Assembly: GCA_016794545.1 (NCBI GenBank)
Contig: JAEUJX010000357.1
Span: 1 to 41,752, forward strand
DNA: 41,752 nucleotides
Source: Myxococcales bacterium
GTDB lineage: Bacteria; Myxococcota_A; Polyangia; Haliangiales; Haliangiaceae
Direction: 5' to 3'
Shown here: positions 3,615-40,624 of the stretch, in pieces
Numbering within the stretch: position 1 is the first letter of the stretch
Layout: each line of letters starts with the position of its first letter
The notes under the pieces: model-generated
Seen by the model: the letters and a program-made list of their open reading frames with translations, nothing else
What the model was told of the DNA's origin: nothing
The model's database searches: none
Made by a program: the position numbers and the translations under genes

Positions 3615-3889
3615 TCGATCACCTCGCCGCGCAGGATGAACTTCGCCAGCGCCGACGAGCTCACGAAGCTGAACAGCGGGATCAGGAGCGCGGCGTCGAA
3701 GTAGACGCTGCTCTGGTAGCGGATCCCGAGGACGAGCATGACGAGCATCGCGTGCAGGTACAGGAGGTCGAGGGCGAACACGCGGTCCTGCGCGCGTGGT
3801 CCGCGGACCAGGCGGACGAGCACGAGCAGCGACGCGAAGGCGTAGCAGCCGATCGCGAACCGGATCGCCGTGAGGAGGACCACGCTCAT
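3611..3889 (-). CDS. mnhF: Mrp antiporter subunit MnhF/MrpF
   Basis: A 92-residue protein of the size usual for MnhF, with three hydrophobic segments and the family motif VRLVRGPRAQDRVFALDLL in the first loop. It is an integral membrane subunit of the Mrp Na+(K+)/H+ antiporter complex. Its ATG overlaps the mnhE stop (ATGA) and its stop overlaps the mnhG GTG, so it is embedded in a translationally coupled chain. Confidence 0.92.
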   Translation of the reverse strand: MSVVLLTAIRFAIGCYAFASLLVLVRLVRGPRAQDRVFALDLLYLHAMLVMLVLGIRYQSSVYFDAALLIPLFSFVSSSALAKFILRGEVIE

Positions 3890-4380
3890 TCGAAGATCTC
3901 CCGCAGGGGCTTCTCGTACCGCTGCTTGAACCGGGCGACGAACGCGCGCTCGTCACCGACATCCCACACGTGCAGCAGCATCGCGCTGCGATCGAGCGCG
4001 AGCTCCGACCACACGGTGCCCGGTACCACCGTGGTCACCATCGCGAGTGCCGCGAGGCCCACCGGATCGCGCAGCTCCAGCGGGATGACCACGAACCGCG
4101 AATCCGGGCGGCGCCAGCGCCACCGCAGGACTCCCCACGCGACCTCGAAGCTCGACGACACGACGTCGAAGCCGACCGTCAGGAGGTACCGCGCGATCAC
4201 GAGCGGGCGGCGCACGCGCACCTCCGGGTGAAGCCGCGAGGTCAGGAGCGGCACACCCACGGCGAATGCCAGCGCCAGGAGGACGTCGCTCGCGCCCGTC
4301 CCGCGCGCGAGCACGAGCCACAGCGCGAACACCGCGCACGAGGTGAGCGGCGCCGGCAGCACCTTCCGCACCAGGCTCAC
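3886..4380 (-). CDS. mnhE: Mrp antiporter subunit MnhE/MrpE
   Basis: The 164-residue protein has an N-terminal pair of hydrophobic helices, then a basic segment (VRRPLVIARYLL) and a cytoplasmic domain carrying TVVPGTVWSEL, the signature of MnhE/PhaE proteins. It is an accessory membrane subunit of the Mrp complex. The start is GTG 4380, overlapping the mnhD stop by four bases. Alternative internal starts exist but would remove the first transmembrane helix. Confidence 0.9.
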   Translation of the reverse strand: MSLVRKVLPAPLTSCAVFALWLVLARGTGASDVLLALAFAVGVPLLTSRLHPEVRVRRPLVIARYLLTVGFDVVSSSFEVAWGVLRWRWRRPDSRFVVIPLELRDPVGLAALAMVTTVVPGTVWSELALDRSAMLLHVWDVGDERAFVARFKQRYEKPLREIFE

Positions 4381-5996: not shown

Positions 5997-6337
5997 GGCT
6001 CGTCCTCCTTCGCGTCGACGTGGTCGGTGCCGCTCAGGCCGCGCGTGGCGAGGAGCACGACGAGGAACAGCGCCGTGGTCGCGAAGCTGATCACGATCGC
6101 CGTGAGCACGAGCGACTGCGGCATCGGATCCGTGTAGTGCTCGAGGTCGGCGGGCACCCCGGGGCGGACGACCGGGGGCTTGTCGATCGCGAGGCTGCCG
6201 ACGCTGAAGATGAACAGGTTCACGGCATACGACAGCAGCGTGAGCCCCATGATCACCTGGAACGTGCGCGGGCGCTGGACGAGCCACACGCCCGCGCCGC
6301 CGAGCACACCGATCACGCACGCGAGGACGGCTTCCAT
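5993..6337 (-). CDS. mnhC: Mrp antiporter subunit MnhC/MrpC (NuoK-like)
   Basis: The 114-residue protein has three transmembrane helices and the NuoK/MnhC pattern RTFQVIMGLTLLSYAVNLFIF. It is a small membrane subunit of the Mrp complex, homologous to NuoK of complex I. ATG 6337 lies 4 bases after the mnhA stop, and its own stop overlaps the mnhD start, so it is part of the same coupled operon. Confidence 0.92.
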   Translation of the reverse strand: MEAVLACVIGVLGGAGVWLVQRPRTFQVIMGLTLLSYAVNLFIFSVGSLAIDKPPVVRPGVPADLEHYTDPMPQSLVLTAIVISFATTALFLVVLLATRGLSGTDHVDAKEDEP

Positions 6338-6341
6338 CGGA

Positions 6342-14143: not shown

Positions 14144-15394
14144 ATGACGCGTGCACTTTCGTCCATTTGCGCGGCCCTCCTGGTTCTGTGCGCGCTCGCG
14201 GGAACGGCCCTGGCCGGCAAGCCCACGGTCGGGGTGCTCGGGCTCGAGGTCTACGACCCGACCGGGCAGATCGATCAGAGCACCACCGCGGTCGCGAAGG
14301 ATCTCACCGATGCGTTGCGGTCGCGCGCGAAGCTGCCGAACGGTCCGTACCAGTTCCAGCCGGGCTCCGAGAAGGAGCTGATCGACGAGAAGCTGATCAA
14401 GAACTGCGACAACGAGGCCGTGTCGTGCATGTCGCAGATCGGCAAGGACCTCGGCGCCGATTACCTGATCTACGGCCGCCTCGAGAAGAAGCCCGACGGG
14501 TACCAGGTGTCGATCAACCTGCTGAACGTCACGAAGAAGAAGTTCGAGAAGGCGAAGTCGCCGATGACCGTGCCGCTCGGCGCCGCCAAGGACCCGCAGC
14601 AGATCCTGTCGGTCGCGACCAAGGCGTACAACGAGCTCGTCGGCGTGGTGACGAACGGCACCCTGATCGTGAAGAGCAACGCCGACCGCGGCACCGTGCT
14701 GATCGACAACGAGCCGAAGGGCACGCTGGCCTCGGGCTCGCTGACGCTGTCGCTGCCCGAGGGCCCGTACCGCGTCGCCATCGAGGCGGACGGCTTCGAG
14801 CGCTCGACCGAGACCAAGGTGACGGTGCGCAGCGGCGAGACGACCTCGCAAGATGTCCGCCTGGTCGAGGCGAAGAAGCCGCCGCCGAACGGCAACACCA
14901 CGGTCGTCACGCCACCGGGCGACGGCACCAAGAAGCCCGACGAGCTGATCCACACCACGACCGGCACCACGTCGACGGCGAAGAGCAACGTGTGGAAGCC
15001 GATGTTCGTCGCCTCGGTGGTCGTCGCGCTCGGCGCCGGCGGGTTCTGGGGCTTCTCGTACTACAAGGAGCAGCAGGCGGCCGACGACGCGGCGAAGAAG
15101 CTCCAGGGCATGAATCACCCGGCGCTGAACGAGAGCTCGTGCAACGACCCGCAGTACAAGACCGTCCTCAAGGACGCCTGCAAGTACAAGGACTGGACGA
15201 CCTACGGCATCATCGGCACCGGCGTCGGCGTGGCGCTGATCGCCGTCACCGGCTACATGGCGTTCGGCCGCGGAGACTCCGAATCCGACGCGAAGGTCGG
15301 TCTCACGGGCAAGCGCGTCCCGAAGAAGGCCATCGCCGTGACTCCGATCCTCCAGCCCAACGGCGGTGGCGCGGCGTTCCGCATCGACTGGTAG
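14144..15394 (+). CDS. PEGA-domain exported/membrane protein, first of a tandem pair
   Basis: A 416-residue protein with a cleavable signal peptide (ending TALA at about residue 24), an alpha/beta N-terminal domain starting KPTVGVLGLEV with TAVAKDLTDALR and DYLIYGRLEKK (reminiscent of CsgG/TolB-N-like folds), a PEGA domain (about 170-245: NGTLIVKSNADRGTVLIDNE ... EGPYRVAIEADGF), a Thr/Pro-rich linker, and two C-terminal transmembrane helices (near 285-305 and 355-375). PEGA domains occur in surface proteins and may bind cell-wall or other surface components. It is paralogous to the next gene, 20 bases downstream. The start codon lacks a Shine-Dalgarno. Function is unknown. Confidence 0.85.
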   Translation: MTRALSSICAALLVLCALAGTALAGKPTVGVLGLEVYDPTGQIDQSTTAVAKDLTDALRSRAKLPNGPYQFQPGSEKELIDEKLIKNCDNEAVSCMSQIGKDLGADYLIYGRLEKKPDGYQVSINLLNVTKKKFEKAKSPMTVPLGAAKDPQQILSVATKAYNELVGVVTNGTLIVKSNADRGTVLIDNEPKGTLASGSLTLSLPEGPYRVAIEADGFERSTETKVTVRSGETTSQDVRLVEAKKPPPNGNTTVVTPPGDGTKKPDELIHTTTGTTSTAKSNVWKPMFVASVVVALGAGGFWGFSYYKEQQAADDAAKKLQGMNHPALNESSCNDPQYKTVLKDACKYKDWTTYGIIGTGVGVALIAVTGYMAFGRGDSESDAKVGLTGKRVPKKAIAVTPILQPNGGGAAFRIDW

Positions 15395-15414
15395 ACTGGT
15401 TGCCGCTCCCCATC

Positions 15415-16575
15415 ATGCAGCGCGCCCTGGCCCTCCTCGTCATACCGCTGGTGTTGTGGCTGTGCGCGGGCAGCGCGGCCGCAAAACCCAAGGTCGCCGT
15501 GCTCGGCCTCGAGGTGACGGGCACGATCGATCAGCAGTCGACCGGCGTCGCCCACGACGTCACCGAGGGGCTGCGCCAGAAGGCGCGCAGCGGCGGCGGC
15601 AATCCGTACCAGCTCGCGTCGAGCTCGGACCGCGAGCTGATCGACGAGAAGGTGCTGAAGAACTGCGACAGCGAGGGCCCGCTGTGCATGAGCGACATCG
15701 GCCGCGACATCGGCGCCGACGTCCTGATCTACGGCAAGCTCGAGAAGACCGGCGACGGTTACCGCGCGAAGCTCCACGTGCTCGACGTGCGGAAGAAGTC
15801 GCACCAGAAGGAGATGACGATCGCCGTCCCGAGCGGGACGAACAGCGACGGCGTGCGCACCATCGCGAAGAAGGCGTACACGGATCTGGTCGGCGGCGGT
15901 GGGCCGCCCACCGGCACGGTGGTGATCACCGCGAACGTCGACAGCGGCACGGTGTTCGTCGACGACGAGCAGAGCGTGCCGGTCGAGGGTGGCAAGGCCT
16001 CGGTCACGCTGCCCGAGGGACGCTACCGGATCGCGGTGGAGTCGCCGGGGAAGCGCCGCAAGGAGAAGACGGTGACGATCGCGTCGGGCGAGCAGGTCTC
16101 CGAGACCTACGAGCTCGGGGCGCTCGGCGGCGGCGGCAAGTCGAACGTGTGGAAGCCGATCTTCGGCGTCAGCCTCGCGGTCACGGTGGTCCTCGGCGGC
16201 GTGTCGCTGTACTCGTTCATCAGCTGGAAGGGCAAGGTCGACAACATCGACGCGATGTACACGGCCGCCTCCGGCAAGACCGGCCCCGTCAGCGACGCCG
16301 ACTGCAGCGGCGGCGGCATCAGCGCCAACGTGATGGACGACAACGGCACTCTCGGCGACGTGTGCAGCCGCCGGCAGCTCAACATCATCACCGGCATCGC
16401 GGCCGCCGGCATGGGCGTCGTGACGCTCGGCGCCGCGTACATGGCGTTCCGCAACAGCGGCGGCAAGAGCGAGACGGCCGGCCTCGGAGCGCGCCGGAAG
16501 CGCGGCACCGAGGTCGTCGTGACGCCACTCGTCACGCCCGACAGCGGCGGCGCGATTCTGTGGATGCGCTGGTAG
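15415..16575 (+). CDS. PEGA-domain exported/membrane protein, second of a tandem pair
   Basis: A 386-residue paralogue of the preceding gene with the same plan: signal peptide to about residue 23 (GSAAA), KPKVAVLGLEVTG, a matching DRELIDEKVLKNCDSEGPLCM segment, DVLIYGKLEK, a PEGA domain (GTVVITANVDSGTVFVDDEQ ... EGRYRIAVESPGK), SNVWKPIF before the first transmembrane helix, and a second helix near the C-terminus. The shared segments KNCD-SE and SNVWKP show a tandem duplication. No Shine-Dalgarno is seen; a TAGACT box (15392-15397) begins inside the upstream stop codon and lies 17 bases before the ATG, so a separate promoter is possible. Function is unknown. Confidence 0.85.
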   Translation: MQRALALLVIPLVLWLCAGSAAAKPKVAVLGLEVTGTIDQQSTGVAHDVTEGLRQKARSGGGNPYQLASSSDRELIDEKVLKNCDSEGPLCMSDIGRDIGADVLIYGKLEKTGDGYRAKLHVLDVRKKSHQKEMTIAVPSGTNSDGVRTIAKKAYTDLVGGGGPPTGTVVITANVDSGTVFVDDEQSVPVEGGKASVTLPEGRYRIAVESPGKRRKEKTVTIASGEQVSETYELGALGGGGKSNVWKPIFGVSLAVTVVLGGVSLYSFISWKGKVDNIDAMYTAASGKTGPVSDADCSGGGISANVMDDNGTLGDVCSRRQLNIITGIAAAGMGVVTLGAAYMAFRNSGGKSETAGLGARRKRGTEVVVTPLVTPDSGGAILWMRW

Positions 16576-22147: not shown

Positions 22148-24058
<1,911 letters not shown>

Positions 24059-24175: not shown

Positions 24176-27100
24176 ATGCTCCGCCGGATCCGGGCCGCGG
24201 TGATCGCCCTTGGTGTATTCGCGACCCACGCTGCCGCTGCGCCCTGTCCGACGGCAGGACCGAACCTGACGCTGACGAACACGACCTGCCAGATGTCGGG
24301 CGTGCACACGTTCCAGTCGATCACGTTGACGAACAGCCGGATCGAGGTGAACCCCTACGCCGGCGGCAGCAAGACCGCGACCGGCAACCTCGAGCTCCGC
24401 GCGCGCACGATCACGATCGATGCGACGTCGCGGATCACCGCCAAGGGCGCGGGGTATCAGACGCCGATCTGCGGCGACGGGCGCGGGCCGCTCTCCACGA
24501 CCGGCACCGGTGACTCGTTCCAGAAGAGCGGGACCACGATGACGCTGACCGATGCCGCCGGGACGTTCCAGGGCGGGCACGTCGGACGCACGATCACGAT
24601 CTACGGCTCCACGTCGGCCGGCAACAACGGCACGTTCACGATCACGCAGCTCATCGGGTCGTCGCAGATCCGCTACACCAACGCGGCCGGCGTCGCCGAG
24701 GCGTTCCCGGGCACGTACATCATCGACGATGGCGCCGCCGGGCAGGGCGGGTGCGCGGTGCGCGACTCCGGCGGTGGTGGCGCGCACTTCGGCCGCGGCG
24801 GTCGCGGCACCAACGACATCTCCGGCACGCAGACATTCCCCGCGGACTTCGAGGAGGACTGCGGCAACACGGTCACGTACAACGGGACCGGCACGCCCGC
24901 CTGCAACGCGATCGGCTCGCCCGCGAGCACCGCGAACTGCCGCAACGATGACGGTCTTCCGACCGTCGCGGGCGCGGGCTACTTCCACTCGATCTACGCG
25001 CCGGAGTTCGGGGCGTCCGGCGGTGACAAGGGCTGCCGCGACGGCGATGGCACCACGCTGATGACCGCGGGCTCGGGCGGCGGGCGCATCGTGCTCGCCG
25101 CGCTGAACGGCGGCATCGGGCTCGTCACGATCAACGGCACGATCGAGGCGACCGGCAAGCGCGGCTGCGGCATCGAGAACGACTCCGGCGGCGGCGGCGC
25201 CGGCGGCACGATCTTCGTGGTCGGCGACAACGTGTCGATCGGCGCGACGGCGCTGATCACCGCGGCCGGCGGCCTCGGCGGCGACACGCAGGGCGCGATG
25301 TCGATGGGCGAGTGCGCGGCGCCGTTCCAGCAGAGCGGCACCTGCGACGACTGCGGCGGCGGCGGCGGCGGCGGCATCATCTCGGTGCTCTCGGGCGCGA
25401 GCGCGAACATCCACGACCGCGCCGTGTTCAACGTCAACGGCGCGCTCGGCGGCGTGTGCCCGATCTGCAACGGCGAGGCCGGCGGCGGCGTCGGCGAGCT
25501 GCAGATCAGCGGCGGCTACGTCGGCGAGTTCTGCGATGGCTTCGACAACGACTTCGACGATCAGGTCGACGAGGGCCTCGGCACGCTCAACTGCGGCACG
25601 ATGACCGTGCAGGCGTGTCTCGGCGGCGTGCCGCAGCAGTGCGCGCCACAGGTCCCGGCGTGTCAGGGCCCGGTGGACGACACGCGCCCGCGGTTCACGG
25701 TGATCCTCGACACCTCGGGCTCGATGCTCGGCAACCTGCCCGGCATCCCGACGTTCGGCGACGGCTCGACCGACCACGCGGGCCGCGACTTCGACGGCAA
25801 CGGCGTCGCGGACGACTCGCGCCTGTACAAGGCGAAGACCGCGCTCAACAACGTGATCGCGGCGTATCCCGATGTCGACTTCGCGCTCGCGCGCTACCAC
25901 CAGGATCAATCGGTCGACCGCAGCTGCCAGCTCGCGCACAACTTCGAGTGCCAGAACCTCCCGCAGGGCATCTGCTGCACGTACGACAACCCCGGCAACA
26001 ACACCGGCATGGCGCCGAGCCCCGCGTGCACGATCAACGGCGGCTCGACCGGTCCCATCACGGTGCTCAAGGACTCGCCCGGCGAGGAGTGCATCAACTA
26101 CGCGGGCAACTGCGGTCCGCCGCGCCGCGGCGCCGACGTGCTCGTCGGGTTCGGCAAGGACATCAACCAGTACCTGATGTGGATGGACGGGACCGAGGTC
26201 AACTTCAACAACACGCAGACCATCGGCGACTACTGCGACTTCGCCGGCGGTGGCGACTGCGAGCTCCGCGGCACGGGCCCGACGCCGCTCGCGAACTCGC
26301 TGAACGCGGTCGAGGACTTCCTCACGCCGATCAAGGGCTGCGACCTCGCGTCGACGGGCGGCTGCCGCAACTACTCGGTGATCCTGCTCACCGACGGTGC
26401 CGAGAGCTGTCAGGGCGATCCGGTCTCGGCGGCGGTCGGGCTGCGGGCGAAGGGCATCAACACGTTCGTCGTCGGGTTCTCGACGCAGCCCTCGGAGACG
26501 GCACAGCTCAACGCGATCGCGGCGGCGGGCGGCACCGGCTCGGCGTTCCTCGTCGGCGACGAGAACGCGCTGGCGAACACGCTCGCGAACATCGTGTCGA
26601 GCTCGATCATCTTCGAGACCTGCAACAACCTCGACGACGACTGCGACACGCGCGTCGACGAGGACTTCCCCGGCAAGGGCCTGTCGTGCACGAACAACAA
26701 GTTCGGCGCGTGCTTCCGCCAGGGCACGCTGGTGTGCTCGACGAACGGGCAGGGCCTCACCTGCGACGCGCCGGTCGTCACGTGCAACGCGTCGGGCCGG
26801 CTGGTCGACGGCACCGGCGCCGACCTCGGCCCGTGCACCGAGATCTGCAACAACCTCGACGACGACTGCGACGCGAAGGTCGACGAGGGCCTGACCGGCT
26901 GCACGTGCGTCGTGCAAGGCGCCGAGCAGTGCGACGGCGAGGACGACGACTGCGACGGCACCACCGACGAGGACACCGACGTCCCGTGCGGGACCGGCGT
27001 GTGCGGCGGCGTGCGCCAGTGCAACTTCGTCCCCGGCTGTAACCCGAGCTCGACGTGTACCGGAGCGAACTGCTGCTACGGCGCGTGCAGCGCGACGCAA

Positions 27101-28708
27101 CCGGTGCCGGAGACCTGCAACGGCCTCGACGACGACTGCGACGGCAACGCGGACGGCTTCACCCGCGCGTGCTCGAACCTGTCGAACGGCTTCCCGCCGT
27201 TCGATCCGCTGAACAACCCGGGCGCGGATCACCCGACCGACACCGGCTGCGAGACGCTGAACGCGATGACGCCGGGCGCGTGCAAGTGCCAGCCCGGCAC
27301 CCGCACCTGTCCGCTCAACGGCAACGGCACGTTCGGCGCGTGCGGCGGCGAGGTCGTGCCGACCACCGAGGTGTGCAACGGCTTCGATGACGACTGCGAT
27401 GGTCGGATCGACGAGACGCCGCCCGTCACGTGCACGACGAACGCGCAGTGCGCCGGCACGCCGATGACACCGACCTGTGACAACCCGAGCGGCATGCCGA
27501 ACATGGGCACGTGCGTGCCGCCCGACTGCTCGACGAACTGCGGCACCGGGCAGCTGCTCTGCCAGGGCGGCATGCAGGTCTGCAACGCGACGATGGCGCC
27601 CGACGACGACTCGTGCGACGGCAACGACGACGACTGCGATGGCATGGTCGACGAGGACTGGGTGTGCGCCGATCCGGACGGTCCCGACGACATCGCCGGC
27701 AACGCCGACGACTGCCGCTGCTCGGTCGCCGGCCAGTGCAACGCGACCGAGACCTGCCAGAACGGCGCCGTGATCTGTCAGGGCATGCCGACGGCCCAGG
27801 AGACGTGCAACTGCCAGGACGACAACTGCAACGGGCAGGTCGACGAGGGCACGCTGTGTCCGAGCGGCGCGGCGTGCACGTCGTGCCAGTGCGCGTTCCG
27901 CTGCAGCCCGGGTGAGTTCCCGTGCCCGCTCGGCAAGAAGTGCAAGGGCACCGCGCCGAACGACTTCTGCGTCGCCGATCCGTGCTTCGGCGTGACGTGT
28001 CCCCCGGTGCCGGGCACCAAGCAGGTGTGCATCGAGGATCCGCAGCAGGCGAACAGCCACCTGTGCGTCGGCGCGTGCAGTCAGGTGACGTGCAGCGCCG
28101 GCCAGGTCTGCCTCCCGCAGACCGGCGAGTGCAAGCCGGATGACTGCACGACGTTCCCGCAGCGCTGCTCCGCGACGCAGAGCTGCATCGTGGACGGCAG
28201 CGGCGTCGGCCAGTGCGTCACCAACCCGTGCGCGGGCGTGACGTGCGGCGCCGATCAGTACTGCGTCAACAACACGTGCGTCTCGAGCTGCGCCGACGTC
28301 GAGTGCCCGGACGGCCAGCGCTGCCGCCTCGGCGCGTGCGAGCTGGATCCGTGCACCAAGCCGTGCCCGTTCGGGAAGGTGTGCCACGACTCCACCGGCC
28401 AGTGCGTCGACGATCCGTGCACGTTCGTGACGTGCCAGGACGGCCAGTGGTGCAACCCGAACAACAACGGCGCCTGCGAGCCGGACCCATGCAAGCTGTT
28501 CGGCGTGAAGTGCCCGAACGTGGGCGAGGTCTGCAAGGGCGGCACCTGCTACGACCCGGCGGCGTTCCTCCCCGACGCGGGCATGGAGGAGCACGTTCAG
28601 GCGGGCGGAGGTGGTGGCTGCGCGGCGGGCGGCGGTGACGCGGGCCTCGCGCTCGGGCTCCTGCTGCTCCTGCGCCGGCGGCGGCGCGCGGCGGGAGGTG
28701 CCGCGTGA
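24176..28708 (+). CDS. Large surface protein: Gly-rich domain, VWA domain, MopE-type repeats, MYXO-CTERM tail
   Basis: A 1510-residue exported protein. A signal peptide (ending about THAAAA, residue 22) is followed by a glycine-rich, beta-helix-like region (to about 450), a first MopE-like motif (CDGFDNDFDDQVDEG), and a VWA domain at about 505-800 with the MIDAS sequence LDTSGSM and LLTDGAES. Seven further CNxxDDDCDGxxDE motifs lie between about 815 and 1230. Then comes a Cys-rich stretch of CxxVTCxxGxxC units, and finally a MYXO-CTERM-type tail: Gly-Cys (GGGGGCAAGGG), hydrophobic LALGLLLLL, and an Arg cluster. MopE motifs are Asp-rich and putatively metal-binding (the name is from a copper-binding surface protein of Methylococcus); VWA suggests protein or matrix adhesion. 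The tail predicts cell-surface anchoring by a myxosortase-type system. It overlaps the next gene by GTGA. Confidence 0.9.
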   Translation: MLRRIRAAVIALGVFATHAAAAPCPTAGPNLTLTNTTCQMSGVHTFQSITLTNSRIEVNPYAGGSKTATGNLELRARTITIDATSRITAKGAGYQTPICGDGRGPLSTTGTGDSFQKSGTTMTLTDAAGTFQGGHVGRTITIYGSTSAGNNGTFTITQLIGSSQIRYTNAAGVAEAFPGTYIIDDGAAGQGGCAVRDSGGGGAHFGRGGRGTNDISGTQTFPADFEEDCGNTVTYNGTGTPACNAIGSPASTANCRNDDGLPTVAGAGYFHSIYAPEFGASGGDKGCRDGDGTTLMTAGSGGGRIVLAALNGGIGLVTINGTIEATGKRGCGIENDSGGGGAGGTIFVVGDNVSIGATALITAAGGLGGDTQGAMSMGECAAPFQQSGTCDDCGGGGGGGIISVLSGASANIHDRAVFNVNGALGGVCPICNGEAGGGVGELQISGGYVGEFCDGFDNDFDDQVDEGLGTLNCGTMTVQACLGGVPQQCAPQVPACQGPVDDTRPRFTVILDTSGSMLGNLPGIPTFGDGSTDHAGRDFDGNGVADDSRLYKAKTALNNVIAAYPDVDFALARYHQDQSVDRSCQLAHNFECQNLPQGICCTYDNPGNNTGMAPSPACTINGGSTGPITVLKDSPGEECINYAGNCGPPRRGADVLVGFGKDINQYLMWMDGTEVNFNNTQTIGDYCDFAGGGDCELRGTGPTPLANSLNAVEDFLTPIKGCDLASTGGCRNYSVILLTDGAESCQGDPVSAAVGLRAKGINTFVVGFSTQPSETAQLNAIAAAGGTGSAFLVGDENALANTLANIVSSSIIFETCNNLDDDCDTRVDEDFPGKGLSCTNNKFGACFRQGTLVCSTNGQGLTCDAPVVTCNASGRLVDGTGADLGPCTEICNNLDDDCDAKVDEGLTGCTCVVQGAEQCDGEDDDCDGTTDEDTDVPCGTGVCGGVRQCNFVPGCNPSSTCTGANCCYGACSATQPVPETCNGLDDDCDGNADGFTRACSNLSNGFPPFDPLNNPGADHPTDTGCETLNAMTPGACKCQPGTRTCPLNGNGTFGACGGEVVPTTEVCNGFDDDCDGRIDETPPVTCTTNAQCAGTPMTPTCDNPSGMPNMGTCVPPDCSTNCGTGQLLCQGGMQVCNATMAPDDDSCDGNDDDCDGMVDEDWVCADPDGPDDIAGNADDCRCSVAGQCNATETCQNGAVICQGMPTAQETCNCQDDNCNGQVDEGTLCPSGAACTSCQCAFRCSPGEFPCPLGKKCKGTAPNDFCVADPCFGVTCPPVPGTKQVCIEDPQQANSHLCVGACSQVTCSAGQVCLPQTGECKPDDCTTFPQRCSATQSCIVDGSGVGQCVTNPCAGVTCGADQYCVNNTCVSSCADVECPDGQRCRLGACELDPCTKPCPFGKVCHDSTGQCVDDPCTFVTCQDGQWCNPNNNGACEPDPCKLFGVKCPNVGEVCKGGTCYDPAAFLPDAGMEEHVQAGGGGGCAAGGGDAGLALGLLLLLRRRRRAAGGAA

Positions 28709-30708
28709 TCCGCGCCCTCGTCGTCGGGCTGGTCGCGGCCGCGGCGCTCGTGCTGACGTCGTGCGATCTGAACCCGTACTGCCTCAACTGCGGCGTCCTG
28801 AACGGCGACGGTGGCCCGGGCGACGCGGTCGACGGTGGCATCGACACGCCCGACGCGCCCGACGCGAGCACGTGCGTGCCGACCGGGCCCGAGGCCTGCA
28901 ACAACAAGGACGACGACTGCGACGGAATGATCGACGAAGGCACGCTCGCGGCGCCCGTCGGCCAGCTGTGCACCAACATCGGCGGCGTCACCGGGCCGGC
29001 GGTCGGCGAGTGCACGGGCGGCATCAACGTCTGCGTGAACGGTGCGGTCGTCTGCGACAAGCCGCCGATGCCCGAGCAGTGCGACGGCAAGGACAACGAC
29101 TGCAACGGTCTCGAGGACGAGGGCGATCCGGGCGGCGGCGCGAAGTGCGGCACCGACGTCGGCGAGTGCGTCGCCGGCACGTTCCACTGCAACACCACGA
29201 CGATGATGGTCGAGTGCCAGGGCGCGATCGGCACCGTCGGCGGGCAGACCGAGACGTGCAACAATCGCGACGACGACTGCGACGGCATGTTCGACGAGTC
29301 GATCCCGACCACCGCGTGCGTGCCGGGCGTCGATGGCCCGATGCAGGGCGACACGGGCGAGTGCAACCTCGGCACGCGCTCGTGCATCGGTGGCGTCACC
29401 GTCTGCTCGGGCGCGGTGTTCCCGACGTTCGAGCGGTGCGATGTCGCCGACCTCGATCAGGATTGCGACGGCATGGGCCACAACGGCTACGACATCCTGA
29501 ACGGCGATCCGCTCAACTGCGGCGCGTGCGGCACGGTCTGCAACCTGCCGCACGCCTTCGAGGGCTGCGCGAACGGCCAGTGCACGATCGCCGCGTGCGA
29601 GACCGGCTGGCACGACAACAACGGGATGGCCTCCGACGGCTGCGAGGCCGGCTTCTGCATCGTCACCGGCAACGAGGTGTGCAACGGCCTCGACGACGAC
29701 TGCTCCGGTGTCGCCGACGACAACCTCGGCACGCCGCCGAACATCTGCAAGGCCGGCGGCGAGTGCGGCGCGACCGCGCCGACCGCGATGTGCATGGGCG
29801 CGATGGGCTGGCGGTGCGTCTACCCGGGCACCGTCCAGACCGATCCGATGACGGGCGCGATCGTCGCCGAGACCCGCTGCGACATGCTCGACAACGATTG
29901 CGACAGCGTCACCGACGAGGGCCAGCCGAACCTCGGCCAGCCGTGCGCCGACACCGGCGTCGGCGTCTGCCAGGGCAAGGGCTCCTACCAGTGCGACGCG
30001 ATGAACCTCAACAACCCGGCCGTCTGCGTGATCACCACGCCGGGCGCGTCGCCGGGCCCCGAGCTGTGCGACGACCAGGACAACAACTGCGACGGCATCG
30101 TCGACAACACCACCGGCCCGGACCGCGTGATCGACTCGATGACTCACGTCGTCCTCGGCGGCCTCGACTACTACATCGACACGTACGAGGCCTCGCGCCC
30201 CGACGCCGCCACCACCAACACCTCGACCTCGCGCGCCTGCTCCACCGCGAACCGCCCGCCGTGGCGCAACGTCACCTGGACGGGCGCCCAGGCCGCCTGC
30301 CAGGCCGCGGGCAAGCAGCTGTGCACCTCGAACCAGTGGCAGTTCGCCTGCGAAGGTGCGCTCGACACGACCTACCCCTACGGCAACGCGTTCATGCCGA
30401 TGGCCTGCAACACCGAGAGCTACGACGGCATCATCGGCCTGCCCGACGACGACGTGATGATCAACACCGGCGCGCTCGCCGCCTGCGTCTCGTCACCCGG
30501 CGTGCGCGACATGTCCGGCAACCTGAAAGAGTGGACCGACGACATCACGGGCCAGACCACCGGCGGCGTCAACATCGCCGTGCTTCGCGGCGGCTCGTTC
30601 GAGACGCCGAAGCTCGGCGCCACGTGCGACTTCCGGACGACGCGCGCCGCGATCAACGTGATCGAGTCGGCGACCGGCTTCCGCTGCTGCCGCGCGACCG
30701 CGCCGTAG
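28705..30708 (+). CDS. Lipoprotein with MopE-type repeats and C-terminal SUMF1/FGE-like domain
   Basis: A 667-residue protein with a lipobox (AAALVLTSC, Cys20), about seven MopE-type motifs (for example CNNKDDDCDGMIDEG, CDGKDNDCNGLEDEG, CNGLDDDCSGVADD; one is degenerate), then a C-terminal formylglycine-generating-enzyme/SUMF1-like fold from about residue 485: YYIDTYEASRPDA, WRNVTWTGAQAACQAAGKQL, NQWQFACEG, RDMSGNLKEWTDD, LRGGSFETP, GFRCCRA. The paired catalytic-cysteine motif of true bacterial FGE (CHxSYCxRYR-like) is not seen, so enzymatic sulfatase activation is doubtful. The start is GTG 28705, overlapping the upstream stop (GTGA), which strongly implies co-translation with the MYXO-CTERM protein. 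It is likely a surface or outer-membrane partner of that protein. Confidence 0.9.
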   Translation: MIRALVVGLVAAAALVLTSCDLNPYCLNCGVLNGDGGPGDAVDGGIDTPDAPDASTCVPTGPEACNNKDDDCDGMIDEGTLAAPVGQLCTNIGGVTGPAVGECTGGINVCVNGAVVCDKPPMPEQCDGKDNDCNGLEDEGDPGGGAKCGTDVGECVAGTFHCNTTTMMVECQGAIGTVGGQTETCNNRDDDCDGMFDESIPTTACVPGVDGPMQGDTGECNLGTRSCIGGVTVCSGAVFPTFERCDVADLDQDCDGMGHNGYDILNGDPLNCGACGTVCNLPHAFEGCANGQCTIAACETGWHDNNGMASDGCEAGFCIVTGNEVCNGLDDDCSGVADDNLGTPPNICKAGGECGATAPTAMCMGAMGWRCVYPGTVQTDPMTGAIVAETRCDMLDNDCDSVTDEGQPNLGQPCADTGVGVCQGKGSYQCDAMNLNNPAVCVITTPGASPGPELCDDQDNNCDGIVDNTTGPDRVIDSMTHVVLGGLDYYIDTYEASRPDAATTNTSTSRACSTANRPPWRNVTWTGAQAACQAAGKQLCTSNQWQFACEGALDTTYPYGNAFMPMACNTESYDGIIGLPDDDVMINTGALAACVSSPGVRDMSGNLKEWTDDITGQTTGGVNIAVLRGGSFETPKLGATCDFRTTRAAINVIESATGFRCCRATAP

Positions 30709-31606: not shown

Positions 31607-32722
31607 CTACTGGCGCTGGAGCAGCAGCGAGCCGAGCGAGTAGCCGGCGCCGAACGACGCCATCACGCCGTAGCTGCCGGCCGGGAGGTCGGCGTTGTGC
31701 CGCGAGAACGCGATCAGCGATCCGGCGGACGCGGTGTTGCCGAACTCGTCGAGGATGATCGGTGCTTCCTCGCGCGTCGCCTCGCGGCCGAGCACACGCT
31801 TGGCGATCAGCTGGTTCATCGGGCCGTTCGCCTGGTGCAGCCAGTAGCGCGCGATCTGGGTCGGCGCGAGGTCGTGCTTCGCGAGGTGGCCCTTGATGAA
31901 GGTCTCCGCCATCGGGACGACCTCCTTGAACACCTTGCGGCCCTGCTGGTGGAACAGCTTGGACGTCTCGTCGTGCTCGGTCTCGGGATCGCAGCGATCG
32001 AGGTAGCCGCGGTTGTTGCGGATCGTCGAGGCCGACCACTTCGACAGCATCTCGACCGACAGGATCTCCCACGACCCCGGCCGGGCCTTCGCCGTCGGCT
32101 CGATCACGAGCGACACCGAGGCATCGCCGAAGATGAAGTGGCTGTCGCGCTCGCGCCAGTTCATGTGGCCCGTCGTCAGCTCGGGCACCACCACGAGCGC
32201 GCACTGCGCCTGGCCGGTGCGCACCGCCTGGCACGCGAGCTGGGCCGCCCCGGTGGCTGCCGAGCAGCCGATCGACACGTCGAAGCCAAAGCCGTGCGCG
32301 CCGAGCGCGTCCTGGACCTCGATCGCGAGGGCAGGGTAGAGGCGCTGGAGGTTCGACGCGCCGAGGACCACGAGGTCGACCTCCTCGCCGTGGCGGCCGG
32401 CGGCGGCGAGCGCCCGCTTCGCCGCGTTGACGGCGTACTCGGCCTGGACGCTCAGCTGGTCCTCGGGGCGGTCCTTGATGTTGGGACACATCCGCTCGGG
32501 ATCGACGAGGCCGGTCTTGTCGTGGACGTAGCGGCGCCGGATCCCCGAGGCCTTCTCGATGAACTCGCTCGACGACTCCTTCAGGGGGTGGTCGGGGTGC
32601 GCCGCGTTGTGCCGGCGGACGAACTCGTTGAACCCGGCGACCAGCTCGTCGTTGGTCAGCACGTTGTCCGGGTGCCACACGCCGTGGCCGGTGATCGAAG
32701 TGCCAGTCGTCTGCCGGGGCAT
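31607..32722 (-). CDS. Beta-ketoacyl-ACP synthase III (FabH-like)
   Basis: A 371-residue thiolase-fold ketosynthase with the KAS III triad: Cys near 153 (FDVSIGCSAATG), His near 295 (YWLHQAN) and Asn near 328 (DEFGNTASAG). The N-terminus has GHGVWHPDNVLTNDEL and an insert (SSSEFIEKASGIRRRYVHD) that makes it longer than the housekeeping FabH. It resembles FabH-like paralogues that condense longer acyl-CoA primers rather than acetyl-CoA; substrate is inferred, not shown. ATG 32722 is preferred (AAGGAA upstream), although GTG 32767 is in frame. It lies 75 bases after the J-domain gene and upstream of the YkgJ-like gene, all on the minus strand. Confidence 0.88.
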   Translation of the reverse strand: MPRQTTGTSITGHGVWHPDNVLTNDELVAGFNEFVRRHNAAHPDHPLKESSSEFIEKASGIRRRYVHDKTGLVDPERMCPNIKDRPEDQLSVQAEYAVNAAKRALAAAGRHGEEVDLVVLGASNLQRLYPALAIEVQDALGAHGFGFDVSIGCSAATGAAQLACQAVRTGQAQCALVVVPELTTGHMNWRERDSHFIFGDASVSLVIEPTAKARPGSWEILSVEMLSKWSASTIRNNRGYLDRCDPETEHDETSKLFHQQGRKVFKEVVPMAETFIKGHLAKHDLAPTQIARYWLHQANGPMNQLIAKRVLGREATREEAPIILDEFGNTASAGSLIAFSRHNADLPAGSYGVMASFGAGYSLGSLLLQRQ

Positions 32723-32797
32723 ATCGAGGTCGGTTCCTTGCACGGGTCCGCACCCGTTGTCTACCACCCGGACCTCACCGGCGATCGCCCGTGGATC

Positions 32798-35362: not shown

Positions 35363-38300
35363 GTGAGAACTTTGGGCTCGAGGATTGGGCGCGTAGGCGC
35401 GCTCGCATTTAGCATCGCGACGTTCGCCGCTTGCGGCGACAACGGCGTGACGCCACCGGATGCGGCGCCAGACGCGCCGCTCACGCCGGCGGCGCTATCC
35501 ATGATGCCGATGTCTGCTGACTTCGGCACCGTCACGGTCAACACGACCAGTGGCGCCCAGACCTTCACGGTCACCAACGGCGGCCAGGCCGAGTCCGGAT
35601 CGATCTCCGCGATCGTCTCGGGCGCGAACGCCGGCGACTTCACGGTGCAGAACGGCTGCACCACCCTCGCGGGTGGCGGCACGTGCGTCGTGAGCGTCAC
35701 CTTCCGCGCCAGCACACCCGGCGCCAAGAGCGGCACGCTCGTCGTCACCGGCTCGCCCGGCGGCACGGCGATGGCCACCCTCAACGCGGCGGCCGTCGCT
35801 CCGACGGCGCTGACCATCACGGGCTCGCCCTTCGACTTCGGCAACGTCGTCGTCGGCACGACCACCACGGTCAACCGCGTCTTCACGGTCACGAACAGCG
35901 GTGGTGTCACGTCGGGTACTCTGACGGTCACGCCGGCGGGCTCCAACCCGGCCCAGTTCGTCAAGACCGCCGACACCTGCAACGGCCAGACGCTGGCCGC
36001 GGGTGCCAACTGCACGTTCACCGTCAACTTCGCGCCCACCTCGATCGGTGCGAAGTCCGCCTCCTTTGATGTCTCCGCGAACCCGGGTGGTCTTGTCTCC
36101 GGCGCCGTCAGCGGCACCGGTATCAACAACGCCACGATCGTCATCACCCCGAACGCGACCGACTTCGGCAGCGTGACGGTTGGTGCCAACAGCACGCAGA
36201 GCTCGTTCGTCGTCACCAACTCGGGTGGCGTCGCGACGGGTGCTCTCGCTGCCCCGACCCTGACGGGTGCCCAGGCCGCGCAGTTCAACATCGTCTCGCA
36301 GAACTGCACCGGCGTGGTCCTCCAGCCGGGCGGCGCGAACTCCTGCACCGTGATCGCGCGCTACTCGCCGACGGCGACGGGCGCGGCGGCCGCGAACCTC
36401 AACGTGACGGGTACGCCGGGCGGCACGGGCGTTGCCAACCTCTCGGGCACCGGTAACGCGGTCGGCTCGCTGACGTTCAACCCGACCACCCACGACTTCC
36501 TCACGGTGAACGTCGGCGCGGCCTCGGCCCCGCAGCAGTTCACGCTGTCGAACCCGGGCGGCTCGCCGATCGGTCCGCTGACGCTCGCCACGGGCGGCGC
36601 CAACGCGAACCAGTTCCAGATCGTCGCCGGCACGGACACGTGCACCGGCCAGACGCTGCTGCCGACGGTCGGCACGTGCACCATCTCGGTCACGTTCAAC
36701 CCGACCAGCGCCGGCCTCAAGAACGGCACGCTCCAGGCGACGGCGCCGTCGGGCACGTTCTCGGCCACGCTCACCGGCACGGGCATCGTGGGCGCCACGC
36801 TCTCGATCGCGCCGGCCACGCACGACTACGGCTCGGTCGCGATCCAGACCAACAGCCCGTATCAGGACTTCGTGGTCACCAACACCGGTGGCGTCGCGTC
36901 GGGCGTTCCGACCGTCGCGCTCAACGGCACCAACGCCAGCGAGTTCAACATCGCGAACCCGCCGAACGGTGGCTGCACCGCGGCCCTCGCTCCGGGCGCG
37001 AGCTGCACCATCCAGGTGCGCTTCTCGCCGGTCATCGTCTCGATGATCGCCAAGCAGGCGACCCTCGACGTCGGCGCCTCGCCGGGCGGTAACGTCTCGG
37101 CGGCGCTCTCCGGCTTCGCGATCAGCCAGGCGCAGATCGCGAACACGCCGTCGGCGCTCTCGTTCAACCAGACCCTGATCGGGGACACCTCGGTCCAGAT
37201 GATCACCGTCACCAACAATGGTGCGGCGACCACCGGCCCGCTGATGGTCACGATCGCCGGCGCGAACGCGGCGGACTACACGCAGACCAACAACTGCACC
37301 ACGCTGCTCAACGGCCAGTCGTGCACCATCAACGTCACGTTCGCTCCGCAGGGCCCGTTCAACCTGAACGCGCTCTCGATGGAGGACCGCCGCAACGCGA
37401 GCGTCACCGTCACCGGCACGCCGGGCGGCACGGCCGTGACGTCGCTGACGGGCACCACCCGTCCGCGCATCGAGCTCCTCGCCCCGTCGACGAACCCGTT
37501 CGACTTCGGCGCGGTCGGCGTCTCCTCTCCCGAGGAGGCCGTGTGCGTGAACGTGACGGTGCGTAACAACACCGCCACCACGGCGAACCTCGCGCTCACC
37601 CCGACGCTCGGCACCCCGCAGCAGTTCTTCCCGGTCACGAACGGCGTGACCTGCCCGACGGGTGGCTACCCGGCGACGTTCGGCGGCGCCAGCGTGTGCG
37701 GCGCGACGCTCGGTGCGGGCGCGAGCTGCACCATCCGCATCGCGTTCAACCCGGAGAGCACCGGCGTGAAGACCGGTAACGTGGTCTTCGCGATCAACGG
37801 CGGCGGTCCGAACAACGCGGTGACGCAGCAGCTCACCGGCACCGGTGGCGGCCTGACGATCAACCCGTGCACGGCGCAGACGTGCGTGGGCATCCAGCCG
37901 CCGATCACCCCGGCGAACCCGTTCAGCTACGGCACGATCAACGTGAACAACTCGAACTTCCAGGAGTTCTTCGTCGACAACGACACCGGCGTTGCCACGG
38001 GCCCGATGGGCACGCGCATCACCGGCCCGAACGCCAACCTGTTCCACATCATCTCCGACACCTGCGCGGGTAACTCCGTGCCGACGCTCGGCGGCTGTGT
38101 GATCCGGGTGTCGTTCGCTCCGACCTCGACGGGCACGTTCACCGCGACGCTGATCACGACGGACTCGACCGGCGCGCAGATCACGAGCTCGCAGAACCTG
38201 TCCGGTACGGGCGGCATGCCGGCCGTGATCTCGGTGACCCCGAACCCGGGTAACTTCACCGCGTTCTCGGGCGAGGCCTCGACGGCCTCGTTCACGGTGT

Positions 38301-40624
38301 CGAGCGCGGGTGGCACGACCTCGCAGATCACCATCACGCCGCCGGGTGGCTTCTACACCATCCTCGGTGGTCAGCCGGGTGACTGCATGTCGGGCACGCA
38401 GACCCTCGCGGCCGGCGCGTCGTGCGTCGTCCGCGTCCGCTACGCGCCGACCGGCACGTGCGTGGGCACGGCCTGCACCTCGGGCAGCAACGTCAGCCAG
38501 TTCACCGTCACGGCCGCCATCGGCGCGCCGGGCGGTATCAACGTGGCGCTGAACGGTACGCAGCGGAACACGATCTCGCTGACGCCGGCGACGACGTCGT
38601 ACAGCACGGTCGACGACGGCACGATCGTGACGGGTGCCTACACCGTGACGAACAACAGCGCGTCGACGATCCAGATCCCGTCGATCGTGCCGATGCCCAC
38701 GGGCCCCGGCACCTTCACGGTCATCGCGAACACCTGCGGCGGCATGATCCTGCCGATGGGTACGTGCACGTTCAGCCTCCAGTACTCGAGCAACACGGCG
38801 GGTACGATCGGTGGCGTGGTTCAGGTCAACGCGACGACCGGCGGTCTCCCGACCGGCATCGCGCAGTCGAACCTCACGGGCACCGTGATCACGCGTGCGC
38901 TCCTGCTCATCTCGCCGCCGGTGGTCACCCGTAACTTCGGTACGGTGGTCGCGGACGCGGTGGCGATGACGAACTCGACGGCGACGTTCACGGTCACGAA
39001 CGTCGGTCAGCAGACCAGCGGCGTGCCGGTCGTCACCATCGGTGGTGACCCGGTGTCGTTCATGATCAGCACGAACGGCTGCACCGCGGGCCTCGCGCAG
39101 AACGGGACCTGCGATGTCGTCGTGATGTTCAATCCGCTGACGACGGGCGTCAAGAACGGCACGTTCAACGTGGCCGGCTCGCCCATCAGCCCGATCGCTC
39201 TCACCGGTACGGGCCTCGCGAACACCGCGGTGACCATCACGCCCGCGCAGCACGTGTTCCCGTCCCGCGTCGTCGGCGCGCAGTCGCCGCCGCAGACGTT
39301 CACGGTGAACAACCCGACGGGCACGGCGGTCGCGATCGACACGACGCCGCTCAACGGCAACACGCAGTTCACGGTCGACCCGGCGTCGACGTGTCTGTCG
39401 CTCGTCGGCAACATGCTGAACGGCGGCGCGTCGTGCACGTTCATCGTGCGCTTCACTCCGACGGTCGTGAACTTCAACGACAACGTGCAGCTGACCCCGG
39501 TCGCCGGCACGTTCGCGTCGATCTCGGGTACGGCGGTCGCGTCGATCCTCGACGCCACGATCGCGTTCGGTCCGGTGGAGATCGCTCCGTCGCCGGGTCG
39601 CACGATCACGTACACGTTCACCAACAACATCGGCGGCAACGACAACCTCGGCGCGCTCTCCATCGCGATCAGCGGTATGGACGCGGCGAACTTCACGCTG
39701 CAGCCGAGCAGCACCTGCCCGGGCACCGACCTGGCGCAGAGCGCGAGCTGCACGATCGTGATCAACTTCCTGCCGACGACGACGGGTCCGAAGATGGCGA
39801 TCGCGACGGTCACCGGCACCTCGGGTGCCACGACCGTCCTGACGCTGACCGGCACCGGCCTCAACCACCCGATGGTCAGCGGTTCGCTGACCGCCGGTGG
39901 CCCGGCCGCGCAGGGCACGCGCCGCGTGGGCGTGCTCGACAACGGCCCGAAGGTCTACACGATCGTCAACGGTGTGGCGTCCAGCAACGCCCCGACCGGT
40001 GCGCTCTCGTTCGCGCTGTCCGACAGCACGAACTTCAAGCTCACCGTTCAGGGTGTGGCGAACGCTTGCTCGCTCGCGGGCACGACGACGCTGATGACGA
40101 ACACGGCCGCGATCGCTGCCCCGCCGTCCGCGGGTAGCTTCTGCAACGTCGGCATCACCTACAGCCCGACCACGACCGGCGCGCACACGACGACCCTGAC
40201 CGTGACCGACGCGACCCACGCGTCGAACACGCTCATGATCCCGAACGCGGTGACCGGCACGGGTGCGGAGACGCTGACGGCGCCGGCCTCGATCGCGATC
40301 GGCGGCGGCACCCCGATGACGAACGTCAACGTGGTCTTCACGAACAACGCGTCCGTTCCGATGAACGCGGTGACCGTGGATGCGTCGATGCTCGGCACGC
40401 AGGTGTCGATCGTCACCGACGGTTGCACCGGCGTGCAGATCCCGGCGATGGGCACCTGCACGGTGGTCATCCGCTTCGTCTCGACGGGCACCGGCTTCAC
40501 CGGTGCGTCGATCTCGGCGACCGGCACGGTGTCGGGTAACAACGGCGCGGCGCTCACCCCGCCGAGCGGTTACCCGGTCAACTTCTCGCGCGCCTCGACG
40601 GCGACGGTGATGCTGACCCCGTGA
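35363..40624 (+). CDS. Giant lipoprotein of about 15 tandem ASH/choice-of-anchor-D repeats
   Basis: A 1753-residue protein. The start is GTG 35363 with GAGGAGG upstream; the lipobox is in ALAFSIATFAAC (Cys24), followed by a short Asp/Pro/Ala-rich linker. The rest is about 15 repeats of 100-120 residues, each an Ig-like ASH (HYDIN / choice-of-anchor-D) unit: a start such as ITPNATDFGSVTVG, then FVVTNSGG, a Cys...Cys pair about 8-20 residues apart (NGCTT ... GTCVV, DTCNG ... ANCTF), VxFxPtxxG, and a closing GTG. All units retain the Cys pair, implying one disulfide each. It should form a long extracellular rod. The last units are more diverged. Hairpins at 40637-40656 and 40660-40687 follow the stop. 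Confidence 0.9.
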   Translation: MRTLGSRIGRVGALAFSIATFAACGDNGVTPPDAAPDAPLTPAALSMMPMSADFGTVTVNTTSGAQTFTVTNGGQAESGSISAIVSGANAGDFTVQNGCTTLAGGGTCVVSVTFRASTPGAKSGTLVVTGSPGGTAMATLNAAAVAPTALTITGSPFDFGNVVVGTTTTVNRVFTVTNSGGVTSGTLTVTPAGSNPAQFVKTADTCNGQTLAAGANCTFTVNFAPTSIGAKSASFDVSANPGGLVSGAVSGTGINNATIVITPNATDFGSVTVGANSTQSSFVVTNSGGVATGALAAPTLTGAQAAQFNIVSQNCTGVVLQPGGANSCTVIARYSPTATGAAAANLNVTGTPGGTGVANLSGTGNAVGSLTFNPTTHDFLTVNVGAASAPQQFTLSNPGGSPIGPLTLATGGANANQFQIVAGTDTCTGQTLLPTVGTCTISVTFNPTSAGLKNGTLQATAPSGTFSATLTGTGIVGATLSIAPATHDYGSVAIQTNSPYQDFVVTNTGGVASGVPTVALNGTNASEFNIANPPNGGCTAALAPGASCTIQVRFSPVIVSMIAKQATLDVGASPGGNVSAALSGFAISQAQIANTPSALSFNQTLIGDTSVQMITVTNNGAATTGPLMVTIAGANAADYTQTNNCTTLLNGQSCTINVTFAPQGPFNLNALSMEDRRNASVTVTGTPGGTAVTSLTGTTRPRIELLAPSTNPFDFGAVGVSSPEEAVCVNVTVRNNTATTANLALTPTLGTPQQFFPVTNGVTCPTGGYPATFGGASVCGATLGAGASCTIRIAFNPESTGVKTGNVVFAINGGGPNNAVTQQLTGTGGGLTINPCTAQTCVGIQPPITPANPFSYGTINVNNSNFQEFFVDNDTGVATGPMGTRITGPNANLFHIISDTCAGNSVPTLGGCVIRVSFAPTSTGTFTATLITTDSTGAQITSSQNLSGTGGMPAVISVTPNPGNFTAFSGEASTASFTVSSAGGTTSQITITPPGGFYTILGGQPGDCMSGTQTLAAGASCVVRVRYAPTGTCVGTACTSGSNVSQFTVTAAIGAPGGINVALNGTQRNTISLTPATTSYSTVDDGTIVTGAYTVTNNSASTIQIPSIVPMPTGPGTFTVIANTCGGMILPMGTCTFSLQYSSNTAGTIGGVVQVNATTGGLPTGIAQSNLTGTVITRALLLISPPVVTRNFGTVVADAVAMTNSTATFTVTNVGQQTSGVPVVTIGGDPVSFMISTNGCTAGLAQNGTCDVVVMFNPLTTGVKNGTFNVAGSPISPIALTGTGLANTAVTITPAQHVFPSRVVGAQSPPQTFTVNNPTGTAVAIDTTPLNGNTQFTVDPASTCLSLVGNMLNGGASCTFIVRFTPTVVNFNDNVQLTPVAGTFASISGTAVASILDATIAFGPVEIAPSPGRTITYTFTNNIGGNDNLGALSIAISGMDAANFTLQPSSTCPGTDLAQSASCTIVINFLPTTTGPKMAIATVTGTSGATTVLTLTGTGLNHPMVSGSLTAGGPAAQGTRRVGVLDNGPKVYTIVNGVASSNAPTGALSFALSDSTNFKLTVQGVANACSLAGTTTLMTNTAAIAAPPSAGSFCNVGITYSPTTTGAHTTTLTVTDATHASNTLMIPNAVTGTGAETLTAPASIAIGGGTPMTNVNVVFTNNASVPMNAVTVDASMLGTQVSIVTDGCTGVQIPAMGTCTVVIRFVSTGTGFTGASISATGTVSGNNGAALTPPSGYPVNFSRASTATVMLTP

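Follow-up and report, generated by a model that had tools for sequence, protein, structure and literature searches.

Two overlapping genes in a 41,752-nucleotide stretch of DNA from a Myxococcales bacterium (contig JAEUJX010000357.1; the whole stretch is called the window below) probably encode a receptor or adhesin of the cell surface that is made up of two subunits. The first protein, P1, combines a VWA domain with MopE-type repeats and a candidate MYXO-CTERM sorting tail; the second, P2, is a predicted lipoprotein with a stalk of the same repeats and a head similar to the formylglycine-generating enzyme (FGE). The shared architectures and the gene order are found in tens of loci, far more than chance gives. 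A fuller proposal, which we hold only tentatively, is that of a receptor with a built-in ruler. The subunits would be anchored at opposite ends, and their repeat numbers would be kept equal by selection so that the heads meet at the same height. Some lineages would make a polyprotein cut by myxosortase and lipoprotein signal peptidase, and one recombination event could reset the reach, as it seems to have done in the window lineage.

The pair consists of the following features.

24176..28708, plus strand: P1, secreted VWA / MopE / MYXO-CTERM protein of 1510 aa, start ATG, stop TGA
24176..24241, plus strand: P1 signal peptide, aa 1-22, by reading the sequence, the cleavage site being without a program prediction
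24242..25528, plus strand: P1 N-terminal Gly-rich beta domain, specific to class A (see below)
25529..25573, plus strand: P1 first MopE-type motif, upstream of the VWA domain
25691..26620, plus strand: P1 VWA head, with a MIDAS-type DTSGSM at 25709 (Pfam, fold match)
26621..27847, plus strand: P1 stalk, seven MopE motifs (Pfam, motif count)
27863..28585, plus strand: P1 Cys-rich membrane-proximal segment
28604..28705, plus strand: P1 candidate MYXO-CTERM sorting tail, consisting of GGC, a hydrophobic helix and RRRRR (TIGR03382)
28705..28708, plus strand: GTGA overlap of the P2 start and the P1 stop
28705..30708, plus strand: P2, predicted lipoprotein of 667 aa with a MopE stalk and an FGE-like head, start GTG
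28705..28764, plus strand: P2 lipoprotein signal peptide with lipobox LTSC (aa 17-20, Cys being aa 20), by reading the sequence
28897..30108, plus strand: P2 stalk, six canonical MopE motifs and one degenerate
30160..30705, plus strand: P2 FGE/SUMF1-like head domain (PF03781)

What the original prediction, made from the letters of the window, had said about the domains was confirmed. It had counted about 8 and 7 copies of the motif CNxxDDDCDGxxDE; P1 contains eight, the first at aa 452 with the second Cys replaced by Phe and the other seven after the VWA domain, from aa 816, and P2 has six canonical ones and a degenerate copy near aa 243 recognised by eye. The GTGA overlap is indeed present at 28705-28708, and co-translation of P1 and P2 may be read off it. 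The VWA domain lies between the first and second motifs, as predicted, and its metal-ion-dependent adhesion site (MIDAS) is intact, with DTSGSM at aa 512 followed by the threonine of GPTP and the aspartate of LLTDG. In Pfam, P1 matches Cu-binding_MopE with 49.9 bits and VWA with 29.6 bits (cut-off 23.8), and P2 matches MopE with 77.6 bits and FGE-sulfatase PF03781 with 60.7 bits (cut-off 23.3). The core of the modelled P1 VWA domain resembles VWA domains in the PDB, the model being of low confidence (mean pLDDT, the predicted local confidence score, 49). The first 70 or so residues of the N-terminal domain are modelled as a beta ladder with pLDDT of 83-90 over most of it; this domain has no match in Pfam.

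The P1 tail passes the cut-off of TIGR03382, 'MYXO-CTERM sorting domain' (16.5 bits vs 15.85), and stays below that of TIGR03901 (15.8 vs 20). The tail of the orthologous P1 in locus L069 is over both cut-offs (TIGR03901 21.5), and that of L072 is over the TIGR03901 cut-off with 26.0. The source genome encodes a protein with a myxosortase core (L121, Mrt_core 106.2 bits, cut-off 100), which is under every equivalog cut-off (MrtX, MrtC, MrtP); six of the seven CPBP matches in the genome were scanned.

The pair is conserved well beyond the window. Matches to P2 occur in 28 of 30 genomes of the family, and matches to P1 also in 28 of 30. Among 282 genomes from the whole phylum, a match to P2 at E<=1e-40 is present in 30; the 15 genomes in which the VWA segment of P1 is found (E<=1e-30) all belong to these 30. 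Selection on the P2 match alone yielded 36 regions in the phylum set: 22 with an adjacent P1, nine with P1 and P2 fused, four at contig ends and one fragmented. Over all loci there are 51 adjacent pairs in the order P1-P2, and 37 of them overlap, 31 by four bases and six by one. Thus the genes co-occur in relatives, the overlap is not unique to this strain, and the paired surface system proposed by the original prediction gains support. The source genome falls in a group in which the relatives that bear names are Kofleriaceae and other metagenome-assembled Myxococcales. The pair is distributed over Kofleriaceae and other Myxococcota, and one complete genome (10,327,335 bases) contains four P1-P2 pairs.

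Some entries of the pair table need comment. One 'P2-P1' row (L099) is spurious, and the rows listed as 'alone' are contig ends (L098, L158, L177, L187), fused genes (L168, L181) and another MopE protein (L111). Gene calling failed in genomes G016, G197, G154 and G234, where loci were taken from the six-frame translation or from match positions. Another pair of MopE lipoproteins with a four-base overlap is present in the source genome (L118, G000:C488, 3-5521, minus strand); a search with the FGE domain of P2 gave no match there. In a 3257-base contig binned as Nocardioidaceae (L070), the best P1 segment is 59% identical to P1 of the window, and this contig is probably mis-binned and myxobacterial.

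The two stalks have matching numbers of repeats. Motifs were counted with a single scoring matrix, in P1 from the VWA domain to the end of the Cys-rich segment and in P2 from the lipobox to the FGE domain. In all 55 measured pairs, with counts between 3 and 18, the numbers differ by two or less (Pearson r = 0.97). Outside this count are loci where the FGE landmarks were missed by the pattern (L091, L096, L114, L178, L179, L180), fused loci outside the table or without a 100-bit VWA match (L176, L184, L192, L175, L185, L181, L168, L082), and loci that lack gene calls or are interrupted by the end of a contig (L085, L098, L092); L112 (6 vs 4) was kept despite its seemingly truncated P2. When partners were shuffled within genomes (37 pairs in 16 genomes), the mean summed difference was 102 vs 37 observed, and the observed sum was never reached in 20,000 shuffles (p = 5e-5). 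On the FGE tree, 11 contrasts amount to at least 1.5 motifs, and nine of these have the same sign in both proteins; contrasts of stalk length correlate with r = 0.92.

Exchange of repeats between the two stalks was considered as the cause of the matching and rejected. The nearest repeat in other loci is a P1 repeat for 387 of 397 P1 repeats and a P2 repeat for 351 of 360 P2 repeats, and a P1 repeat is hardly nearer to the repeats of its own partner than to those of another locus in the same genome. Thus the repeats of P1 and P2 descend separately, and the match in number does not come from copying between the genes.

If P1 and P2 were surface lipoproteins independent of each other and shared no more than their transcript, they would show the same match provided that old paralogue classes had inherited their stalk sizes. 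Indeed, motif numbers hardly vary within a class, and many of the small contrasts are discordant. However, the matching holds both under the contrasts and under the within-genome shuffles, both sorting signals are retained through repeated fusion, and the window lineage swapped both stalks together (the last two points are described below). We consider independent lipoproteins rather unlikely.

P1 and P2 are encoded in a single frame in 15 loci (L100, L102, L116, L119, L162, L176, L184, L189, L190, L192, L175, L185, L181, L168, L082; L100 is the same locus as L071, and L102 the same as L073). At all 15 junctions two signals come one after the other: a MYXO-CTERM-like segment, made up of a Cys, a hydrophobic stretch and an end rich in Arg or Lys, and then another hydrophobic stretch that carries a lipobox. 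The spacing between the two ranges from a few to some forty residues. One of these internal tails scores 20.0 bits on TIGR03382 (cut-off 15.85). In L168 there is no start codon between the two junction signals, and in L119 the start codons found fall within the first hydrophobic stretch, so that a separate start of the second half is not available in these loci; in L102, an ATG ahead of the Arg-rich stretch would permit one. On the FGE tree the split or fused state switches at least eight times, this being a quick tree on which the direction of change is not polarised.

The fused product may be a polyprotein that is cleaved both at the Cys of the MYXO-CTERM-like tail and at that of the lipobox, which would yield the same two subunits in a 1:1 ratio. 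A comparable case is MXAN_5598, a single open reading frame thought to be a gene fusion, whose internal MYXO-CTERM motif is proposed to be processed and whose authors liken it to the overlapping TraA/TraB genes (excerpted text of PMC11980579). Its C-terminal half is a beta-barrel/OmpA part and not a lipoprotein, whereas the fused loci described here carry the second sorting signal directly behind the first. The other possibility is that the fused protein stays uncut in the inner membrane, as one chain with a helical hairpin, the separate genes being the sole working surface form. The internal signals could then be relics of recent fusion, and cleavage is a prediction; however, the retention of both signals in 15 of 15 loci, the repeated changes of state on the tree and the processing proposed for MXAN_5598 (same excerpts) make an uncut product distinctly unlikely. 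In L168 (G177:C76), the fused protein continues for about 300 residues past the FGE domain (about aa 2860-3162), with another Cys-rich part and a further domain.

The VWA tree and the FGE tree, each built alone, contain the same four within-family groups, A to D. Since the two trees agree on the classes, the two heads are co-inherited. The classes also differ in their neighbourhoods and inserts. Class C often adjoins a GAPDH-type gene, named from its sequence. Class-B P2 proteins have an insert of about 150 residues or more inside the FGE domain. This insert matches Pfam GH115_C (cut-off 24.1) with 30.6 bits in L113 and, under the cut-off, with 18.5 bits in L087. The GH115_C family is found at the end of glycoside hydrolases, and carbohydrate binding by the class-B insert is a reasonable guess.

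The window pair sits in the class-A locus. A RecQ-type helicase on one side and a ketoacyl-ACP-synthase-III-like gene on the other flank the class-A locus both in the window and in genome G014. The RecQ-type neighbour is 78-86% identical in G014:C28 and G005:C121, and the synthase-like neighbour is 80% identical in G014:C28. The flanks, and the block discussed below, are placed as follows.

22148..24058, minus strand: RecQ-type helicase, left flank of the class-A locus (name from sequence)
31607..32767, minus strand: ketoacyl-ACP-synthase-III-like gene, right flank of the class-A locus (name from sequence)
26696..30024, plus strand: class-B-like block (P1 stalk, both anchors, overlap, P2 stalk) between class-A heads, ends approximate (+/-120 bp)

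When compared in 40-residue steps with relatives of classes A and B, the window pair is a mosaic of class-A heads and class-B stalks, with both stalks swapped as one contiguous block. In P1, the class-A part extends as far as about residue 840 and the class-B part starts near 880; in P2, the class-B part comes first, ending near residue 440, and class A follows. The Cys-rich segment of the window protein and its ortholog nests within class B (98/94, 94/93), near the C17 pair of the same genome, and class-A membership of this part is rejected by the approximately unbiased (AU) test (p = 0.03). The window P2 stalk is also placed in class B by its tree, but here class-A membership is not rejected (p = 0.12). 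The groups for the AU tests were chosen after the first trees had been seen. Two further loci have mixed ancestry. In G012:C793, the FGE head is class A and the stalk clusters with the class-B pairs from the same genome (100/100; vs class A p = 0.0007), and in G013:C263, the heads are class D and the Cys-rich segment class B (class-D membership rejected, p = 0.03). In the window lineage, recombination with a class-B paralogue would have swapped both stalks at once and left the heads untouched; a single event would suffice because the stalks are adjacent in DNA. By the motif count described above, both stalks went from three or four motifs to six with this swap, and so changed together.

The anchors suggest how the subunits may be arranged. 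As P1 has a candidate anchor at its C-terminus and P2 at its N-terminus, and the two signals stand back to back in the 15 fused loci, it is most likely that both proteins are attached to the same membrane with the heads outward. The original prediction had called the pair a link between two envelope anchors. The anchors themselves stand, the tail by its TIGR03382 score and the lipobox LTSC by reading; one shared membrane is more likely than a link between two. In the receptor reading, both proteins would be lipidated and trimmed, P1 by myxosortase at the C-terminal Cys and P2 at the N-terminal one, and would reach the same outer membrane, probably through type II secretion. The chains, held at opposite ends, would run antiparallel, both heads pointing outward if the membrane is shared. 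The rods, stiffened by disulphides and Ca-type loops, may stand side by side, and equal repeat numbers would then lift the VWA and FGE-like heads to equal height to form a joint binding tip. What the tip binds would lie on a surface, and would probably be a glycan or glycoprotein belonging to neighbouring cells or to prey.

The FGE-like domain of P2 reads as a binding head rather than an enzyme. Domains of this type have the C-type-lectin fold. In the enzyme, the loop after RGGS carries two active-site cysteines. All nine aligned P2 sequences have a single invariant Cys, C641, between RGG and GFRCC. The PF03781 match begins at profile position 82, the first part of the domain being missing, and the nearest solved chain is SUMF2 (1y4j), which is catalytically inactive. 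Binding is preferred over catalysis, and catalysis is unsupported, because of the one loop Cys, the proximity to SUMF2 and the presence of the class-B insert within the FGE domain. Thus, of the earlier description as SUMF1-like, the PF03781 family assignment stands and the enzymatic connotation does not; P2 differs from SUMF1 and SUMF2 by its single loop Cys, its shortened start and its position at the tip of a putative surface lipoprotein. Taken with a VWA domain that has a MIDAS, two binding modules point to a receptor or adhesin for cells, prey or surfaces.

An enzyme pair, in which the target of the FGE-like domain is P1 or some other surface protein (for formylglycine formation or another oxidation) and the VWA domain serves for docking, would agree with the PF03781 score, which is well above the cut-off. 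However, each of the features just listed, namely the lone Cys in the place of the Cys pair, the missing start, the inactive nearest structure and the large class-B insert, speaks against it, and we give this possibility very little weight. FGE-like domains are known targets of diversity-generating retroelements, and one reverse transcriptase is encoded on another contig of the genome; that such an element acts on the P2 domain is unlikely, the template repeat not having been searched for.

The original prediction further held the pair to be metal-loaded. Loading as Ca-type loops is plausible; both stalks are rich in Asp and Cys. Copper binding or copper storage is not supported. The Pfam repeat is named Cu-binding_MopE, 'putative metal-binding motif', and PF11617 unites MopE and the pair by the repeated CNxxDDDCDGxxDE motif. 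However, the copper site of Methylococcus MopE consists of two His and a kynurenine and lies outside this motif (excerpted text of PMC3423442), which here builds long stalks. The motif itself does not contain these residues, no alignment search against MopE having been made for the site. The stalks are also poor in His and Trp (four His and two Trp in 630 aa of P1, five His and two Trp in 470 aa of P2). A metal-storage or metal-scavenging pair, binding copper or calcium in the manner of MopE with the heads as accessories, would fit the name of the repeat and the composition of the stalks. The MopE copper site is no part of the motif, though, and storage would leave the matched repeat numbers and the conserved heads unexplained; we regard it as very unlikely.

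Several observations weigh against a two-subunit receptor with matched stalks. Physical contact between P1 and P2, like their complex and its ligand, is deduced from the sequences rather than observed. The structure model of P2 is poor (mean pLDDT 41) and unusable, and of the weak model of the P1 head no more than the VWA core and the beginning of the N-terminal domain was used. Large stalk contrasts are few (n=11), two of them discordant, and the signs of the length contrasts are the same in 28 cases vs opposite in 19, small differences being noise. The fused proteins of L176, L184, L175 and L185 contain the Cys-rich segment and no convincing VWA domain by hidden Markov model search. Gene order is reversed, with P2 before P1, in four class-D loci (L110, L117, L194, L195), and many loci derive from metagenome-assembled genomes. 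The reversed order is stable within one genus-level group.

A MYXO-CTERM protein with an overlapping partner gene is in itself a known arrangement. In TraA/TraB, the receptor for outer membrane exchange in Myxococcus xanthus, TraA carries its MYXO-CTERM tail behind a head and a stalk rich in Cys, and the second gene, TraB, overlaps it by four bases and encodes an envelope partner (excerpted text of PMC3325183). The present pair is similar to TraAB in architecture, and by its domains it is not homologous. The head of TraA is a PA14 domain and its repeats are of the TIGR04201 family, whereas P1 has VWA and MopE repeats; TraB has an OmpA-like domain, whereas P2 is a predicted lipoprotein with MopE and FGE-like domains. 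In Pfam, no PA14 was found in P1 and no OmpA-like domain in P2, and no family match joins the pair to TraAB. The P1 Cys-rich segment has no NCBIfam match, the presence of TIGR04201 in the library not having been checked. Searches of the open-licence PMC literature returned no description of the VWA/MopE and MopE/FGE pair, of its matched stalks or of the double-signal fusions.

Myxobacteria have dozens of MYXO-CTERM surface proteins (excerpts of PMC11980579), few of which have a known job. The pair adds a conserved, multi-copy candidate two-subunit system with clear predictions: P1 and P2 should form a complex, their stalks should match and the polyproteins should be cut twice. With repeat numbers that match in proteins of separate descent, the pair would amount to a ruler experiment done by nature, and the fused genes offer ready substrates for the question, raised for MXAN_5598, of whether a sorting signal can act at an internal position.

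Three other regions of the window were noted. A run of six genes with overlaps (3228-9164, minus strand) reads as an operon of a Mrp-type Na+/H+ antiporter. Two adjacent secreted proteins of 416 and 386 aa (14144-16575, plus strand) are apparent tandem duplicates. A repetitive protein of 1707 aa (35501-40624, plus strand) is probably a surface protein.

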